IMG/VR virus record: IMGVR_UViG_3300023219_000740
Location: 1 to 22,389 of that record
Reading direction: 5' to 3' (one strand)
From: a virus
DNA: 22,389 nt
The first letter of the stretch is position 1; each line of letters begins with the position of its first letter. Both the position numbers and the translations under genes were made by a program. This document shows, piece after piece, positions 4,541 through 11,335 of this stretch. Below the pieces are notes generated by a model. That model had not been told where the DNA came from, did not search any database, and saw only the letters and a program-made list of their open reading frames with translations.

Positions 4541-5371
4541 ATGGTTAAGGGCGTGGCAGACGTTATTCATTACCACGGAACACCTGTATGGGGTGACGCT
4601 GGTAACGTTCACCGTATTGCGGTCACCGGTGCTGGCGCATTTGTATCGTATGCACGTCCTGACCAATTAGCTGCATCAATTAAATACGCCCTTTCCGTTG
4701 CTATAGATAATGGAGCTTTTTCAGCGTGGAAGCGTGGCCTCGTTATTGACTGGCAGCAATTCTATCAATGGCTTATTCCTCATTATCATCACCCCAAACT
4801 GTCATTTTTTGTTATCCCTGATGTGGTTGAAGGTGGCGAAGCTGACAATGACGCGCTTATCGCTAAGCTACCGCGCTGCTTCAAAGACAAAGCAGCGCCA
4901 GTTTGGCATTTGCATGAATCATTGCATCGTTTAGTTGAGCTTTGCCGAGAGTGGCCGCGCGTGTGCTTTGGGTCGTCAGGTGAGTACACAACTATCAGAA
5001 CCCAGCTCTGGCATCGCAGGATGTCAGATGCGTTTGAAACCATTTACTGCAAACATAGTTTCTCAACACAGGTGCACGGGCTCCGCATGCTCGATGGTAG
5101 GGTTTTGGGGAACTATCCTTTGGCGACTGCCGATAGCACAAACCTTGCCTGTAATGTGCCGAAATTCGAAGTCAAATACCCAGAGCTCACAAAAGCAATT
5201 CGCGAAGCCGATTATGCGAAAAACCTTTCTGAAGATGAACTTAAGGCAGTCATTCTCAAACGCCGTTGCGCCATTCTGAAAAATACTATTGAGGCCGTAT
5301 CCCCTCCATCGATTGCAAGCTGGATATCAAAAGGGTTGGCTCCGCTTCAACTGGAGTTGGCTATCGCATGA
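4541..5371 (+). CDS. TGT/DpdA-like TIM-barrel protein, possible 7-deazaguanine base exchange
   Basis: A 276-aa protein of a phage family usually left hypothetical. Its motif order follows tRNA-guanine transglycosylase: D56-N-G-A-F (TGT DSGGFQ), I-P-D94 in a strand end (TGT second Asp), G144-S-S-G (TGT GGLAVG), H179-G-L-R-M-L (TGT YLMGVG) and P-L-A-T-A-D198-S-T-N (TGT nucleophile Asp region). TGT-type enzymes swap guanine for preQ0 or preQ1 in tRNA; DpdA proteins do so in DNA, and phage versions protect DNA from restriction. No preQ0-synthesis genes are nearby, so a substrate would come from the host queuosine pathway. It lies 3 bp after the DUF5405-like gene and overlaps gene A by ATGA. The GTG at 4553 is an alternative start. 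The fold is inferred from motifs and the substrate is unknown. Confidence 0.72.
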   Translation: MVKGVADVIHYHGTPVWGDAGNVHRIAVTGAGAFVSYARPDQLAASIKYALSVAIDNGAFSAWKRGLVIDWQQFYQWLIPHYHHPKLSFFVIPDVVEGGEADNDALIAKLPRCFKDKAAPVWHLHESLHRLVELCREWPRVCFGSSGEYTTIRTQLWHRRMSDAFETIYCKHSFSTQVHGLRMLDGRVLGNYPLATADSTNLACNVPKFEVKYPELTKAIREADYAKNLSEDELKAVILKRRCAILKNTIEAVSPPSIASWISKGLAPLQLELAIA

Positions 5372-7593
5372 CGAAATATACATTTGCATACCCGTGGAAT
5401 GCTCCACGGTCGGCAATAGCCAGCCCATACCTTACCTATGACCAACAGTATCGCCGCGACCGTATGTTCGCGGCTTTGCTGTATGCGAGAAAGGTGCTTT
5501 CTCTCCAGCCTGAGTGCGTGCGTTTTGATGTTTATCGAACCGCTGCGGTGCTGGAGCAAAATCAGGGCAGTCAACGAGCCAATGCTTTTTTAATCAGCTT
5601 CTGCAAAAAGGCATTGCCGCGTCTTGAACTGGTCGCAAAAAAATACGAGTGCGCGGGTATTAACAGCAATGTATCAGCCGCTGTTTTCGATGGTCATTTT
5701 GATACCCAGCTTATGCAATATCTGGCGTCACGCATGGTCAATATGGTCGCCAGATTTAACCGCCTCCCGGATATGTCGCGCGCCGATATTGACCTGCTGG
5801 CTGCTGATATCGCTAATTTCATTCGTTCTGAACTGGCTGATATTGATGACACCGGATTTAGCGAACTCAAAACGCTGTACACCTGGTACATGCGCGCCGG
5901 TTTTATTTCCCTGCAATTCAACGTTACACCGCCGAAATGGGAGCGTGTGACTAAAAAATATTTTGGCGAGGATGAAATCGCACCGGCAGTAATTCGAATG
6001 TTTAATGAGGTTTGGTGGCGTGGTCGTTTACGTCGCATTGCGTCTGCATGGCGCGAACATCTACAAATTGCTGTTGGCAATGTCAGTAAGAAAAAGCACG
6101 TCTATGCGAGTAAAAACTGCGTGACTGACTGGCGCGAGCAGAAACGCCGTACGCGCGAATTTCTTAAAGGACTGGAACTCGAAGACGAAGACGGCAATCG
6201 CATCAGTCTGATTGAAAAATATGATGGCTCGGTCGCTAACCCTGCGATACGTCGTTGCGAGCTGATGACCCGCATCCGTGGGTTTGAAAATATCTGCAAT
6301 GAGCTCGGTTATGTCGGTGAGTTTTACACTCTGACTACACCGTCTAAATATCACGCCACCACCAAAGCGGGCTACCGTAACAGCAAATGGAACGGTGCCA
6401 GCCCATCGGACACGCAGAGCTATCTAACCGGTCTTTGGGCACGCATACGCGCCAAGCTACACCGGGAAGAAATCCGCATTTTCGGTATACGTGTTGCCGA
6501 GCCTCATCACGACGGAACGCCGCACTGGCACATGCTTATGTTCATGTTGCCGGAAGACGTCGAGCGTGTGCGTCGCATCATCCGTGATTATGCGTGGGAG
6601 GAAGACCTCCACGAACTGAGAAGCGATAAAGCCAAAAAAGCGCGCTTTCATGCCGAAGCCATTGACCCAGAAAAGGGTAGCGCTACCGGCTATGTCGCTA
6701 AATACATTTCCAAAAACATCGACGGATATGCTCTTGATGGTGAAACCGATGACGAAAGCGGTGAGCTGCTGAAAGAGACAGCCCCCGCCGTATCAGCATG
6801 GGCGGCGCGCTGGCACATCCGTCAGTTCCAGTTTATCGGCGGTGCGCCGGTGACGGTCTACCGTGAATTACGTCGTCTCGCTGATACCGAGACCGCGCAC
6901 GGTCTGAGCGTTGAGTTTGCTGCCGTCCATGATGCCGCTGACGCCGGTGACTGGGCTGGTTACGTTAATGCGCAGGGTGGTCCGTTTGTCCGTCGCGATG
7001 ATTTACAGGTGCGCACGCTGTATGAGCCGCGCCCCGAGTTTAACCAGTATGGTGAGGAAACCGTCTGCATTCGTGGCGTCTACGACTCTGCTGTCGGCGC
7101 TGGCACCCCGATTTTAACCCGGTTAACGCAGTGGAAAATTGTGCCGAAGCGTGCCGTTGATTTGGCCGTTGACGTTAAGGGCGCTCCTGCGCCCTCTCGG
7201 AGTTCTGTCAATAACTGTACGGGAAGCGAAAGCGATCCACCGGAACTCGATTTATCAAAACCCCTGAGTCGACGTGAAAGACGAGAGCTGACCAACCGAC
7301 TCAGGAAGCAAAAACCAGCAATACGGCGAAAATTCATCCACGGAACGGATGAGCAAAACGCAGCTATAGCTAAAACTATCGACGAGATACAACTGACAAC
7401 CGGCATTACAATCGGCCGTGGCGAAGCTCTGCACCTGATGGCCGGTGGTAAAAGTTGTTTTGATGGCAAATGGCTACGCGGAACGGCCAAAGGAGAAATA
7501 TTCTTAGCAGCACCATCGCATCAGGCTAAGGCTAGAAAAATCCTTTATCGTGTTGCTGCGATGGCTGAGGCATCAAAACCAATGCCTGAGTAA
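5368..7593 (+). CDS. A: Rolling-circle replication initiator, gpA HUH endonuclease
   Basis: Nicks one strand at the phage origin, stays covalently attached, and starts rolling-circle replication with host Rep helicase and DNA polymerase III. The HUH motifs are intact: motif 1 TLTTPSKYH (about residues 320-330), motif 2 HHDGTPHWH with H386-x-H388, and motif 3 YVAKYISKN with paired catalytic tyrosines Y442 and Y446; P2 A has the same pair. At 741 aa it falls between 186 A (694) and P2 A (761) and appears complete. Its ATG overlaps the preceding stop (ATGA), so it is translationally coupled to the TGT-like gene. The probable origin lies within its own coding sequence near 7196. Confidence 0.97.
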   Translation: MTKYTFAYPWNAPRSAIASPYLTYDQQYRRDRMFAALLYARKVLSLQPECVRFDVYRTAAVLEQNQGSQRANAFLISFCKKALPRLELVAKKYECAGINSNVSAAVFDGHFDTQLMQYLASRMVNMVARFNRLPDMSRADIDLLAADIANFIRSELADIDDTGFSELKTLYTWYMRAGFISLQFNVTPPKWERVTKKYFGEDEIAPAVIRMFNEVWWRGRLRRIASAWREHLQIAVGNVSKKKHVYASKNCVTDWREQKRRTREFLKGLELEDEDGNRISLIEKYDGSVANPAIRRCELMTRIRGFENICNELGYVGEFYTLTTPSKYHATTKAGYRNSKWNGASPSDTQSYLTGLWARIRAKLHREEIRIFGIRVAEPHHDGTPHWHMLMFMLPEDVERVRRIIRDYAWEEDLHELRSDKAKKARFHAEAIDPEKGSATGYVAKYISKNIDGYALDGETDDESGELLKETAPAVSAWAARWHIRQFQFIGGAPVTVYRELRRLADTETAHGLSVEFAAVHDAADAGDWAGYVNAQGGPFVRRDDLQVRTLYEPRPEFNQYGEETVCIRGVYDSAVGAGTPILTRLTQWKIVPKRAVDLAVDVKGAPAPSRSSVNNCTGSESDPPELDLSKPLSRRERRELTNRLRKQKPAIRRKFIHGTDEQNAAIAKTIDEIQLTTGITIGRGEALHLMAGGKSCFDGKWLRGTAKGEIFLAAPSHQAKARKILYRVAAMAEASKPMPE
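7196..7215 (+). other. Probable phage replication origin (gpA nick site) inside gene A
   Basis: In P2 the A protein nicks within its own gene, in DNA encoding a P-R-S-P-V-N-N-C peptide (CTCGGAGTCCTGTCAATAAC, as I recall it). The same place here reads CTCGGAGTTCTGTCAATAAC and encodes S-R-S-S-V-N-N-C, differing at one base. Conservation at DNA level in an otherwise diverged, low-complexity linker of the protein supports an origin. The exact nick position is not visible from sequence. Confidence 0.6.
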
Positions 7594-7666
7594 TTCATAT
7601 CCATATCATGCACATACAGCAATCACCCTATTCATTTTTTTCTTCCCATCTTTTACCAATACGTGC

Positions 7667-7686
7667 TACTGTATAAATATACAGTA
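7667..7686. promoter_or_regulatory. LexA (SOS) box of the tum-like operon
   Basis: TACTGTATAAATATACAGTA is a perfect 20-bp palindrome and a textbook LexA operator (CTGT at 7669-7672, eight A/T bases, ACAG at 7681-7684). It sits about 20 bp before the start of the 60-aa gene and overlaps the likely -10 region, so LexA should shut this promoter until DNA damage. 186 p95 and the Fels-2 tum promoter are controlled in this way at the same map position. Confidence 0.93.
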
Positions 7687-7706
7687 CACCCTATGGGAGG
7701 GATTTC

Positions 7707-7889
7707 ATGGTTGGCGAACATTTCAGCCGAACGCAGCAAAAGTGGGCTTGTGTGCAATTTATCGCCGAGGTATCTCTGATTGCAAACTGCAAGCCATCAG
7801 ACTTAAAGCTCGCGCTCACTCTCATTGCAGACTTAGCAAACAGCGAAAATAACGAAACCGAAGATGATATTTTTTATAAGGCTGATTAG
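7707..7889 (+). CDS. First SOS-controlled ORF, probable N-terminal Tum-like antirepressor part
   Basis: A 60-aa ORF directly downstream of the LexA box, with a strong GGGAGGG ribosome site at 7695-7701. The protein is mainly helical (QQKWACVQFIAEVSLIANCKPSDLKLALTLIADLAN) with an acidic tail, and shows no known domain. It ends in TAG at 7887-7889, and the following DinI-like ORF is in the same reading frame only one codon later. Phage 186 Tum is a single protein of about 146 aa whose C-terminal half is DinI-like; reading through the TAG here would give 139 aa. It may therefore be the N-terminal half of a split or amber-interrupted Tum, or the first of two separate tum genes. Its action on the repressor is inferred from 186. 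Confidence 0.7.
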   Translation: MVGEHFSRTQQKWACVQFIAEVSLIANCKPSDLKLALTLIADLANSENNETEDDIFYKAD

Positions 7890-7892
7890 ATT

Positions 7893-8126
7893 ATGAGAAT
7901 CAATATCACGTTGGATAAAGAGCAAAAAATTAGTCAGGCAACGTTGGATGCACTGGAGGCTGAGCTGTACCGCAATCTTCAACCTATTTACCCAAAGACT
8001 GCTATCCGCATTCGCAAGGGCTCCGCAAATGGTGTTGAGCTAAGCGGTTTGAAACTGGACGAAGATAAAAAACGAGTAATGGAAATCATGCAGCAAGTAT
8101 GGGAAGACGATAGCTGGCTGCATTAA
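7893..8126 (+). CDS. DinI-like protein, C-terminal Tum-like domain
   Basis: A 77-aa protein closely patterned on E. coli DinI (81 aa): MRINITLDKE strand, an ALEAELYRNLQ helix, the P-K-T-A-I-R-I-R-K strand, and a final helix KKRVMEIMQQVWEDDSWLH matching the DinI EILQETWE.ADDWF ending. DinI modulates RecA filaments; in 186 the DinI-like domain is part of the Tum antirepressor. It follows the 60-aa ORF after TAG-ATT, in the same frame, with only a weak ribosome site, so reinitiation or amber readthrough is plausible. LexA control comes from the shared box at 7667. A strong hairpin follows the stop. Confidence 0.85.
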   Translation: MRINITLDKEQKISQATLDALEAELYRNLQPIYPKTAIRIRKGSANGVELSGLKLDEDKKRVMEIMQQVWEDDSWLH

Positions 8127-8132
8127 TAAACG

Positions 8133-8167
8133 CCGCCAGCGCTGAAACTCGCTTTCAGTGCTGGCGG
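8133..8167. terminator. Bidirectional hairpin between convergent genes
   Basis: CCGCCAGCGCTGAAA at 8133-8147 pairs with TTTCAGTGCTGGCGG at 8153-8167 (15 bp, one G-U, 5-base loop). It lies between the stop of the DinI-like gene (8126, rightward) and the stop of the HEPN gene (8200, leftward). The T-rich side is on the minus strand (CGTTTATTAATG after the stem), so it is a better intrinsic terminator for the leftward gene; rightward there is no T-run. Confidence 0.75.
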
Positions 8168-8199
8168 GGTTGAACAACGAGCTACGCGAGGCGTTAGTG

Positions 8200-9138
8200 T
8201 TAATTTAGTTTTAATGAATGGTACTCAACCGAGTCGACCTTAGATTTGATATATGTACAATCATTTACAGAGAGTAATGCTGCTAGTAAGCGACATACCA
8301 GAGCCTGCATTTCTCGTAATATATCATCACCATATTGACCGCCATTAACACTGGAGAAACCAAGCGGTTGACCATAGAAAATAGCCTCATGAAAATTATC
8401 ATTGCGGATGGTTGTAATATTTTTTTTGCCTGTTACCCATGAAGGACGTGGTATGCCATAGGTTTCGCACAGCCACTTTAACCGCCTGGAGTGATTTAAC
8501 GTTTTTTCAGGGCACTTGTTTTTTTCTGCCCACGCTAAAGCAAAACAACCATCCAATGCCATATAAAGATACTGGAACTTTTCAAATGAAAGGTATTGTG
8601 GGTTGTGAGATAAAAATAGTGCGTGCACCACTGCCGCTATTTTTATTGGTGATTTCTCAGTTTTTTGCTCGCTAGATATGTAATTGAGAGCCAATTCTAT
8701 GATTGCTTTTTCAGAGCATCTGCCGAGAATAAAGTCTGTTAACTTAGCAGGCTTGATGGGGGTTGCATCTAAAAAACCAGCATCGGTGGTTGTTAATCTC
8801 ATCCCCCTGAAAAAAGACAGGCACCACACTACAAAGTTGAGAGTTTCTAGCGAGGATGTATTTTTTAATTTTAGTATGTGCGTTTTTGGCAATCCGAATA
8901 CTCGGCAACTATAAGGCATTATGGATATGCCGCCATTAAAGTTATATATCTCTTGGTTTCCTGGGTATATCCAGCCATTAACAACATTTTTGTCATTGTT
9001 AACGCGCTCTACTTTCTCAGCGAGGCCGGGTAAAGTAAGTAAAGAAAAATTTTCAGTCTCAATGTTAACTTCTACTGGATAGTATCCAAACTCAGATCCA
9101 ATCTCATCGGGCTGCTGTTCGTTAACTTCACCTTGCAT
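8200..9138 (-). CDS. HEPN-domain protein, candidate anti-phage abortive-infection RNase
   Basis: A 312-aa cytoplasmic protein without signal peptide, in visibly AT-richer DNA than its neighbours and transcribed against the early operon. The C-terminal half is helical and contains R245-N-D-N-F-H250, the R-x4-H motif with the usual polar residue after Arg that marks active HEPN ribonucleases; the preceding helices (YLYMALDGCFALAWAEKN, SRRLKWLCETYGI) fit a HEPN bundle. The N-terminal 130 residues are mixed and could be a sensor, a layout like ApeA-type defence proteins. It sits between the early genes and cos, where P2 carries tin and old and where related prophages exchange defence genes. The ATG at 9138 has GGAGAAAG just upstream. 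I infer the defence role from motif and location; the N-terminal domain is unrecognised. Confidence 0.72.
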   Translation of the reverse strand: MQGEVNEQQPDEIGSEFGYYPVEVNIETENFSLLTLPGLAEKVERVNNDKNVVNGWIYPGNQEIYNFNGGISIMPYSCRVFGLPKTHILKLKNTSSLETLNFVVWCLSFFRGMRLTTTDAGFLDATPIKPAKLTDFILGRCSEKAIIELALNYISSEQKTEKSPIKIAAVVHALFLSHNPQYLSFEKFQYLYMALDGCFALAWAEKNKCPEKTLNHSRRLKWLCETYGIPRPSWVTGKKNITTIRNDNFHEAIFYGQPLGFSSVNGGQYGDDILREMQALVCRLLAALLSVNDCTYIKSKVDSVEYHSLKLN

Positions 9139-9375
9139 ATCTTTCTCCGTTCAAAAATAGGCTCGATAGTTATGGAGAGGCTATCATGTTTGGAAATTGC
9201 CAATGTTCGTGATTTTTGTAAATTTAAGGTGATTTATCAATAAATAAGCTGTGCATGCAACAGGTGCATGGTTTTGCATGCGTCAGGCTTGCCCGTTCTG
9301 GTAGTGCGCAGCCAGAGCTGGCGCGGATCCAGAGTGGTCATGCAACTGCATTAAAACCGACCCATAAAGCGGGCA
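9139..9375. other. Non-coding cos-left region with three TGCATG repeats
   Basis: No gene is supported in this stretch. TGCATG occurs three times at 9252-9257, 9265-9270 and 9275-9280, spaced 13 and 10 bp, roughly one helical turn apart, within about 125 bp of cos. This is the side and distance where P2-type terminase recognition sequences lie. A short dyad GATAG/CTATC (about 9169-9189) lies in the leader of the HEPN gene and could be a regulatory site; no clear promoter for that gene is recognisable. Confidence 0.45.
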
Positions 9376-9394
9376 GGCGTGGCGGGGAAAGCAT
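9376..9394 (+). other. cos site, 19-base cohesive end identical to phage 186
   Basis: GGCGTGGCGGGGAAAGCAT is the 19-base cohesive-end sequence I recall for coliphage 186; P2 differs by A for T at base 5 and C for T at the end. It fixes where terminase (P plus M) makes staggered cuts to form linear virion DNA, and shows that the physical phage genome would begin here and run through Q, P, O and onward. Bases 9395-9541 between cos and the Q terminator hold no gene that I can support. Confidence 0.93.
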
Positions 9395-9536
9395 TGCGCG
9401 CCAGAGGTGGTGCGTAATGATAAAAATTATCGTCTGAGCGCCTCGTAATGGCGCTATCGTGGTTGCTGTCGCTTCGTTGGTGGTCGTGTGTGTTCGTGCG
9501 CGTGTGGCGCGTCTGAGGCGTGATGGTGGCGGGGTA

Positions 9537-9562
9537 TGAAAAAGCCGCCATGCTGGCGGCTT
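9537..9562 (-). terminator. Intrinsic terminator of the leftward P-Q operon
   Basis: AAGCCGCCA at 9542-9550 pairs with TGGCGGCTT at 9554-9562 through a 3-base loop. Read on the minus strand, the stem is followed by TTTTT, giving a standard rho-independent terminator 8 bp after the Q stop codon. It should protect cos and the HEPN gene from read-through. Confidence 0.88.
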
Positions 9563-9569
9563 GAGGGAA

Positions 9570-10592
9570 TTATTCCGGGTTGTCGAGGGTGTACTCTTTG
9601 AACCTGATGACCTCCATGCCGAGCCAGTCGTTTACCTCCCTGAACCTGTCCTGTAGCGGCGACAGCTCATTGCGCACAAATACCTTTGCCACCTTCTCAA
9701 CGTCACCGAGTGAGCCGATATTCTCGGGCTTGCCACCCATTAGCTGGAACGGCACGCGGTGCGCATCCATCAGGTCGGCGGCACTGGCTTTCTTGATATT
9801 GAAAAAGTCATCCTTTGTGGCGACCTCGCTCAGTGGCACGATTTTGATACCGTCCGGTTTTCCGCCGGGGGCGTAGAAAAACAGGTTCTTAAAGTTGCCG
9901 AGCCCTTTCGAGTTGCGCATCGCCTCGCGCAGCGATTCGACGTCGGTCGCGCTCTGCGCCGGGTCGGTCACATACATGATGTAACCCGCGTGCGCGCCGT
10001 TCTGGTAATACTTGCGACGGAATAGCGTCGCGGATTCATTCAGCCAGGCAGAATTAAGCGCACTGAGATATTCCGGCAGGCCGTAAATTTCCTGATTAAT
10101 GTCAGGCTCCAGCAGGTGAAACACGGTGTCAGGCGCGAACTCATGCGGCAGAGTGAAGTTTTCCACAAACCAGAAAATCGAATCATCAACCCCACGACGG
10201 GTATATTTGGCCGGTGAGGTCAGTAGCTTGATTAACTGGCCGGTGACGCTGTGGCGCTGCTCAAGAAAGGCGTTGCCGAATACCAGATAGTCGAGCGCAA
10301 AACGGCTGAAATCCTGACGGGATAACAACGGGTGCGGAATGTAGGTGCTCGCGAGCACGTTGCGTTTAACGTAAATCGGTGAGCTGTGATGCACGGCAGA
10401 GCGCAGGCTCTTTGCCAGCCCGGAGAAGCTGACCGGCGGCTCGTACCATTTGCCGTTACTGATGCACTCGACATAATCCAGAATATCGCGCTTATCGAGT
10501 ACCGGCACCGGCTCGCCGAAGGTGAACGCCTCCATTTTTTGCGGGGCGCTGGCGGTCGTGGCGACTGTTTTGCGTGGCTTGCGCTTGCTCAT
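9570..10592 (-). CDS. Q: Portal protein gpQ
   Basis: Forms the 12-subunit portal ring at the capsid vertex through which DNA is packaged. The 340-aa length matches P2 Q (344 aa), with the family landmarks EPVPVLDKRDILDY near the start, a W-Y-E-P-P-V segment, the conserved FGNAFLE..H region around 110-120, and R-K-Y-Y-Q-N-G-A-H-A-G (about residues 193-203). Its ATG overlaps the stop of the upstream ATPase-like gene (ATGA), so in this phage portal translation is coupled to that extra gene instead of directly to P. Terminator at 9537. Confidence 0.97.
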   Translation of the reverse strand: MSKRKPRKTVATTASAPQKMEAFTFGEPVPVLDKRDILDYVECISNGKWYEPPVSFSGLAKSLRSAVHHSSPIYVKRNVLASTYIPHPLLSRQDFSRFALDYLVFGNAFLEQRHSVTGQLIKLLTSPAKYTRRGVDDSIFWFVENFTLPHEFAPDTVFHLLEPDINQEIYGLPEYLSALNSAWLNESATLFRRKYYQNGAHAGYIMYVTDPAQSATDVESLREAMRNSKGLGNFKNLFFYAPGGKPDGIKIVPLSEVATKDDFFNIKKASAADLMDAHRVPFQLMGGKPENIGSLGDVEKVAKVFVRNELSPLQDRFREVNDWLGMEVIRFKEYTLDNPE

Positions 10593-11335
10593 GCTGCCAC
10601 CTCACCCGCTGCAACAGCGAAAGACCAGTCGCAGCCAAACAGCAGACGATAATCATCGTCGCTGTATTCGCGTTTAATTTCTTGAGGCGCAAAGAGATTG
10701 CACCCGCGCTGGCATGCTGCATCCAGAGTGACCGACTGACGCCAGACACCATCTGTGCAAAATACGCTGTCGCCAGTATTGATTAGCGGTGACGGTCGGC
10801 GCTTGCGGGTTGTGCCGCTCCACACCCTGAATGCTGCATAGCTGTCTGATGGTGTGGTGAACATCGTCAGATTGTGGCGTTTATGGCTGGCGATAGCTGC
10901 CGCGACTTTTGCCGCTCTTAGAGGGTTATTGAACCACCCGAACTCATCAAGATAGACATTACCAGCCAGCGCGGCGCAATGGGATTCCTCGCCGACAAAG
11001 CTGATAACCGCACCGTCGTCGAGCTGCAGGCTGTGGCCGTTGCTCGTAAGGCTGACACCGACGCGCGCCGAAAGGTTGTTCATGTACATCAGCGCCACGC
11101 GCGCATGCTCAACGGTGTGAGCAAACCAGACCTGATTATCGCCCGTTGTCAGCGCATCGAGCAGCGCCTCGCGACTAAAGAGCTGCGTTGCGCCAATCTG
11201 GCGCGATTTGGTGATACTGCGGTCGATATTGAGTTTTCCGACCCGCAGCCATACTGCCTGATAATCAAAGCTGTCATTGTGCAGAATATCGGCCATTGCC
11301 TGAATCTGGCTTTGTGAGAAAACGTTATTTTTCAT
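10589..11335 (-). CDS. ATPase-only paralogue of terminase large subunit, inserted between P and Q
   Basis: A 248-aa protein that aligns with the ATPase domain of gpP in the next gene: K43-SRQIGAT50 equals P K166-SRQIGAT173, the Walker B pair D130-E131 equals P D253-E254, and FTTPS at 159-163 equals P FSTPS at 282-286, all at a constant offset of 123. It ends at C-D-W just where P crosses into its nuclease domain, and it lacks both the P N-terminal helix-turn-helix and the nuclease. All ATPase residues are kept, so it looks selected. P2 has no gene here (P and Q are adjacent). It overlaps P by one base (TAATG) and Q by four (ATGA), so it is fully built into the operon. A role in packaging, regulation or interference with satellites is speculation. 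Confidence 0.85.
   Translation of the reverse strand: MKNNVFSQSQIQAMADILHNDSFDYQAVWLRVGKLNIDRSITKSRQIGATQLFSREALLDALTTGDNQVWFAHTVEHARVALMYMNNLSARVGVSLTSNGHSLQLDDGAVISFVGEESHCAALAGNVYLDEFGWFNNPLRAAKVAAAIASHKRHNLTMFTTPSDSYAAFRVWSGTTRKRRPSPLINTGDSVFCTDGVWRQSVTLDAACQRGCNLFAPQEIKREYSDDDYRLLFGCDWSFAVAAGEVAA

Follow-up and report, generated by a model that had tools for sequence, protein, structure and literature searches.

Sensor-HEPN proteins and the P2 defence hotspot

Defence of a lysogen by a single protein that joins an unrecognised N-terminus to a C-terminal HEPN domain has been described for Tha, the tail-activated HEPN anti-phage system of S. aureus prophages, with Tha-1 and Tha-2 (PMC11087260). 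The prophage protein Tha-1, of 301 aa and with the motif R265NSIMH270, is switched on by a minor tail protein and depends on H270 for defence (PMC11087260). Tha-1 shows that a sensor-plus-HEPN layout works as prophage defence. HEPN domains of the RNase type are defined by the motif R-x4-6-H with a polar residue following the arginine, and are also marked by an acidic residue in helix 2 upstream of it; KEN, PrrC and RloC depend on the R, the following N and the H for catalysis (PMC3710099). The interval between gpA and gpQ is a hotspot in which Rousset et al. validated defence genes, and the defence cargo described for the P2 hotspot includes tin, old, a DUF4238 protein, DprA-PRTase and the AC1 TIR system (PMC9122126). 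Four of Vassallo's systems also sit in this interval (PMC9519451).

Here we analyse the cargo gene of the gpA-gpQ interval in a provirus (IMG/VR record IMGVR_UViG_3300023219_000740, positions 1 to 22,389; this whole stretch of 22,389 nucleotides is referred to as the window). Its product is likely, in our assessment, to be a single-gene abortive-infection defence acting through a HEPN RNase. What is new is this HEPN family, while the class of sensor-plus-HEPN single-gene defences and the P2 hotspot itself are known.

The gpA-gpQ interval and its cargo gene

The window has the backbone of a 186/PSP3-like (Eganvirus-like) prophage, and its features of interest are given in Table 1. The original prediction, made from the letters of the window, had the slot right in placing the gene between A and cos, but had assigned it to P2, whereas the backbone is not that of P2 proper. 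The cos region, recognised by eye, lies between the cargo gene and gpQ. The locus has the arrangement of hotspot cargo, in which gpA and gpQ enclose, next to cos, a gene that varies and is missing from most relatives. The predicted open reading frame of 312 aa is present and AT-rich as described (GC content 39.3%, against 52.5% across the window), and it does run against the early operon, being convergent to gpA-tumA-dinI (5368-8126, + strand) and co-directional with gpQ, downstream of which it lies. Comparison with orthologues gave dN/dS values of 0.15-0.25, indicative of purifying selection; low dN/dS and low GC content together mark a selected gene that looks acquired.

Table 1. Coordinates of features in and around the gpA-gpQ interval of the window.
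Feature	Position	Strand	Evidence or remark
gpA replication endonuclease, left slot anchor	5368..7593	+	94% identical to PSP3 A protein
LexA box CTGTATAAATATACAG before tumA-dinI, the operon facing the HEPN gene	7669..7684	+	fits consensus
tumA, SOS induction of prophage	7707..7889	+	100% identical to PSP3 TumA over 60 aa
dinI-like (tumB)	7893..8126	+	Pfam DinI E 7e-24; PSP3 TumB 99% identical
Conserved ~70-bp hairpin element, terminator-like, boundary of exchangeable cargo	8128..8198	.	hairpin z; relatives
HEPN-domain cargo gene, 312 aa	8200..9138	-	PHROG 5937; orthologue of P2-EC67 ORF313
C-terminal HEPN domain, ~residues 140-291	8266..8721	-	model of 138-312 matches HEPN structures
R245-N-D-N-F-H250-E251, predicted HEPN catalytic motif	8386..8406	-	R245, N246, H250, E251 invariant
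D196, invariant acidic residue in helix before motif	8551..8553	-	alignment; predicted helix 185-206
N-terminal region, residues 1-112, beta-rich part and helix, proposed sensor	8803..9138	-	AlphaFold2; without recognised family
Shine-Dalgarno GGAG	9145..9148	-	7 nt 5' of ATG; kept in most orthologues
Imperfect palindrome CTCCATAACTATCGAG, possible operator	9162..9177	-	between likely promoter and start of cargo gene
Weak sigma70-like promoter candidate TTGATA-17-AAAAAT	9212..9240	-	alone not above chance
Terminator hairpin after gpQ	9542..9562	-	z -4.2; separates late P-Q transcript from HEPN gene
gpQ portal protein, right slot anchor	9570..10592	-	

The region upstream of the cargo gene, covering the promoter candidate, is conserved in relatives. 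The palindrome within it carries two mismatches in the window and is found in its perfect form, CTCGATAATTATCGAG, at the related loci L003, L004, L021 and L031.

Two LexA boxes were found in the window, against 0.22 expected. The second of them (CTGT-N8-ACAG, 1143-1158) also fits the consensus and is located inside a DUF2511 gene beside the repressor gene; it may be a chance occurrence. The CI-type repressor itself (1420-2280, - strand) consists of two tandem Phage_CI_repr DNA-binding domains followed by one CI C-terminal domain, the two Pfam stretches representing an unusual duplication. A further gene of the early operon (4541-5371, + strand) matches PHROG 887, queuine tRNA-ribosyltransferase (E 7e-95), and has no Pfam match; such an enzyme is also annotated in SW9 and SEN1, and the gene could belong to DNA or tRNA base modification.

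A hairpin element at the cargo boundary

An element of about 70 bp fills the whole gap between the stop codons of dinI (8126) and of the HEPN gene (8200), with hairpin z values of -3.5 and -5.0 on the two strands. The cargo gene had been credited with a terminator of its own. A strong hairpin is indeed present, but as the gap is shared with dinI it is bidirectional and not private to the HEPN gene. With conserved flanks of the form AACGCCG...GGGGTTGAACAACGAGC...GCGAGGCGTTAG, the element is found in 49 phage records and in 508 of 5,426 E. coli genomes, and every element-bearing region that was opened proved to be the gpA-portal interval, with SIR2, GmrSD, RT, DUF2971 or other cargo alongside. 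Two direct copies flank a small gene in PSP3, SW9, SEN1, L003 and L021. The single copy of the window has the left flank of one copy joined to the right part of the other, a composition that recombination between the copies, with loss of the small gene, would produce. The element is probably, we infer, a terminator that works in both directions and also provides a seam of homology at which cargo is exchanged; its conservation points to a way in which cargo is swapped at the P2 hotspot. An Rfam search with the 70-bp element gave no credible match. An integron attC site, with similar ends (AAC...GTTAG), was considered for it and rejected by eye, the element having neither a long imperfect hairpin nor a consistent core site.

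Distribution and mobility of the cargo gene

The cargo gene is present in 96 of 5,426 complete E. coli genomes and in 4 of 50,697 phage records, including that of P2-EC67 (ORF313). Close orthologues (74-100% identity) occur in P2- and 186-like IMG/VR proviruses and distant relatives in Lelliottia, Desulfovibrio and other proviruses; further homologues are carried by plasmids of Acinetobacter, Providencia, Burkholderia and Bradyrhizobium, and about 1% of the proteobacterial genomes sampled contain one. The gene is thus far from fixed in P2-like phages; fixation in all of them, with a housekeeping role, is what would have spoken against the original prediction. The A-to-cos interval proved variable in content across related prophages: the same slot is filled by other genes in 186, PSP3, EtG, SW9 and SEN1, and in others SIR2, GmrSD or RT genes follow the boundary element.

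Phage backbones exchange the HEPN gene as one piece. The protein encoded at locus L004 is 95% identical to that of the window, with gpA only 37% identical, and at loci L001, L004, L013 and L031 DNA similarity resumes exactly at position 8128. In another relative (L006:4611-6771) the gene is broken after codon 55 by an insertion of about 1.2 kb that arose naturally, which shows it to be dispensable for the prophage. Among 21 loci no neighbour recurs widely beyond the phage backbone genes, and the homologues on plasmids and chromosomes stand alone, without a shared neighbour; this marks the gene as a single-gene system. At locus L067, the HEPN homologue lies between two small lipoprotein-like genes (8962-9408 and 10607-11062) which look similar by eye, as if it had been inserted into a duplicated pair.

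Several homologues are found near other defence genes, an association which is supportive but not statistical. In one distant genome (L065:2310-11458 and L110:9851-16095) a homologue is embedded in a tight operon, 1-2 bases from its neighbours, in the order WYL regulator, DruE-like helicase, DrmD/DpdE-like helicase, DrmMI/type IIG-like methyltransferase, HEPN homologue, PDC-M04A and PDC-M04B; this operon looks like a DISARM/Druantia-like hybrid defence system. Large Ppl-like PHP-ATPase proteins, only 21% identical to each other, adjoin homologues at two unrelated loci (L035:3087-5765 and L066:5402-8272). The copy on the Burkholderia plasmid adjoins a PDC-S15 (FRG) gene, with a gene for a DUF4238 protein, which is a validated defence gene (PMC9122126), a few genes away. 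A defence role for the cargo gene appears well supported by its context.

The occupant of the slot in phage 186, orf97, is annotated 'expression from plasmid blocks 186 infection', and this raises the question of whether the cargo gene likewise serves its own phage, either as a host-takeover RNase or by superinfection exclusion directed at close relatives only. We regard this as unlikely: serving one phage would be senseless for the homologues on plasmids of four genera and for that in the chromosomal multi-gene defence operon, and the cargo gene is preceded by a conserved region of its own and shielded from the late operon.

Family membership, catalytic motif and predicted fold

Searches of Pfam, NCBIfam and PADLOC with the window protein gave no match, and Pfam and PADLOC searches with nine diverged relatives returned matches at chance level only. 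PHROG 5937, which carries no functional annotation, is the only family to match the window protein, and it does so over the whole length. Matches to BCL-xL and ribonucleotide reductase in a PDB sequence search were set aside as weak chance matches (E 0.2-2). Neither HEPN_Apea (PF18739) nor ApeA_NTD1 was matched in Pfam up to E 10 by the window protein or by 25 relatives, and the profile search against HEPN families proposed earlier brought no other Pfam HEPN family to light for the window protein. The silence of PF18739, which the library used contains, in the homologue genomes carries no weight, as the control genomes were equally silent. In the absence of a Pfam, NCBIfam or PADLOC match the cargo protein is not an ApeA by sequence, and ApeA membership was rejected on this basis. 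The family is thus absent from Pfam, NCBIfam and PADLOC 2023, and may have been predicted earlier in newer catalogues.

The motif R245-N-D-N-F-H250 is the sole R-x4..6-H in the 312-aa protein. A bare R-x4-H carries little weight on its own, because 19% of shuffles of the protein contain at least one, against 0.1% for R[ND]x3HE. The real evidence for the predicted motif is the invariance of R245, N246, H250 and E251 over 19 homologues, aligned at 23-81% identity. These residues belong to a set of 20 invariant columns that also comprises D196 and H216/R219 and, in the N-terminal region, G18, W56, P84, T86 and H87. With R245-N246-x3-H250 and the acidic D196 in the preceding helix, the protein shows the sequence features of an RNase-type HEPN domain.

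A full-length AlphaFold2 model built with 23 family sequences (mean pLDDT 69) is beta-rich near the N-terminus (about residues 12-92), continues in helices, and is helical in its C-terminal half. The N-terminal domain of about 130 residues postulated earlier is unrecognised as stated, but is not one uniform domain. The three best VIA-align matches of this model are the HEPN proteins 7bxo, 8pe3 (Csm6') and 6tug (Z 5.1-5.7). Confidence was low at the motif (residues 243-268), and residues 138-312 were for this reason folded alone (mean pLDDT 64). The best eight VIA-align matches of the resulting model are all HEPN domains, with Z values (5.4-8.3) that are modest, as helical bundles with Z below about 13 can reflect a common arrangement: Csm6 6tug (8.3), the HEPN-MNT toxins 7ae9 (7.6), 7bxo (6.9) and 5yep (6.9), the sacsin HEPN domain 3o10 (6.7), 1wty (6.4), which we take to be HEPN-like, 1wwp (6.2) and 2q00 (5.4). 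The ninth match drops to Z 4.6 over 40 residues. Both 1wwp and 2q00 are listed as HEPN (PMC3710099). Foldseek searches of PDB and BFVD gave no significant match for the full-length or the C-terminal model. The HEPN-like helical bundle seen in this model of moderate confidence is not conclusive by itself. Nevertheless, the fold matches agree with the motif despite their modest Z values, and the assignment of the C-terminal domain to HEPN is therefore safe. Both the R-x4-H motif and the bundle expected around it in the original prediction are thereby borne out.

HEPN domains are common as toxins of toxin-antitoxin systems, and the resemblance of the C-terminal model to HEPN-MNT toxins brings to mind an addiction module whose toxin acts on the host and stabilises the prophage, with its antitoxin encoded nearby. 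Such a module is very improbable, however, given that only phage backbone genes are conserved as neighbours among the 21 loci, that the cargo gene of the window adjoins no MNT-type or small antitoxin gene, its neighbours being dinI and gpQ, and that conservation extends over both the N-terminal region and the HEPN part, which fits built-in control. On the Acinetobacter plasmid, the copy is moreover followed by BrnT and BrnA genes that form a complete pair by themselves. We give equally little credence to a HEPN-fold binder of nucleotides or nucleic acids that acts as regulator or decoy without cutting RNA: RNase activity is absent in some HEPN families (PMC3710099), but such families usually lose R-x4-6-H, whereas the R, the following N and the H are invariant here.

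Proposed mode of action

We propose that the cargo gene encodes a stand-alone prophage defence protein in which an N-terminal region serves as sensor and a C-terminal HEPN domain as ribonuclease. The lysogen would produce it, in an inactive state, from the gene's own promoter. Upon infection by a second phage, a product of the invader would engage the N-terminal region, and the HEPN domains, as a dimer, would cut RNA through R245 and H250; metal-independent cleavage as a dimer is a hallmark of RNase-type HEPN domains. Translation and growth would then halt before the invading phage is released, an abortive infection like that brought about by Tha in staphylococcal prophages. Upon induction of the resident prophage, transcription of tumA-dinI, an operon under LexA control that is aimed at the 3' end of the HEPN gene, may lower expression of this gene through read-through or transcriptional collision, and self-targeting could be avoided in this way; the convergent orientation is the sole indication for such a shut-off.

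More tentatively, the homologues may together form a new, wide-ranging family of infection-activated HEPN RNases with an undescribed N-terminal sensor, which phages and plasmids carry as stand-alone cargo and which acts as suicide module within a multi-gene DISARM/Druantia-like operon; in prophages, convergent transcription of the SOS-controlled tum operon would switch it off at induction. Taken as a whole, this wider proposal is possible but rather doubtful.

If the prediction of a single-gene defence is true, nearly 2% of complete E. coli genomes and plasmids of several genera carry a defence family which is uncatalogued in the databases searched, and the trigger of its sensor would be accessible by simple selection of escapers.

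Comparison with known systems

Among P2 hotspot cargo, the HEPN gene occupies the same slot beside cos between gpA and gpQ, and it is likewise accessory, sporadic and exchanged between phages; it differs in that no PADLOC model of such systems matches its product. The closest solved folds are the HEPN domains of HEPN-MNT toxins and Csm6 (Z 6.9-8.3, in the modest range noted above), with which the protein shares an R-x4-6-H RNase site, but it has neither MNT antitoxin nor CARF domain nor CRISPR association. The likeness to ApeA put forward in the original prediction stands as regards layout, i.e. a single gene that places a HEPN effector behind a beta-rich N-terminal region. It does not extend further: HEPN_Apea is not matched, and the N-terminal part spans about 110-140 aa in a protein of 312 aa, compared to about 300 aa for ApeA-NTD1 alone (PMC3710099).

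Tha is a closer analogue than ApeA. Both Tha and the window protein are encoded by single prophage genes of about 300 codons facing an opposing transcript, and in both an unrecognised N-terminal part precedes a C-terminal HEPN domain with R-N-x3-H near residues 245-270. The phage and the slot differ, no dedicated inhibitor comparable to ith, which is encoded antisense, was found (no small neighbour is conserved beyond backbone genes in the 21 loci; the convergent tumA-dinI operon could play such a part through transcription only), and there is no detectable sequence homology. Indeed, homology to Tha was rejected on the basis of an hhalign comparison of the 19-sequence alignment with 80alpha ORF3 (Tha-1), which covered 13 columns with a probability of 0.6%. 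If the proposed function is correct, the two families together would suggest that sensor-plus-HEPN single genes have arisen repeatedly as prophage weapons.
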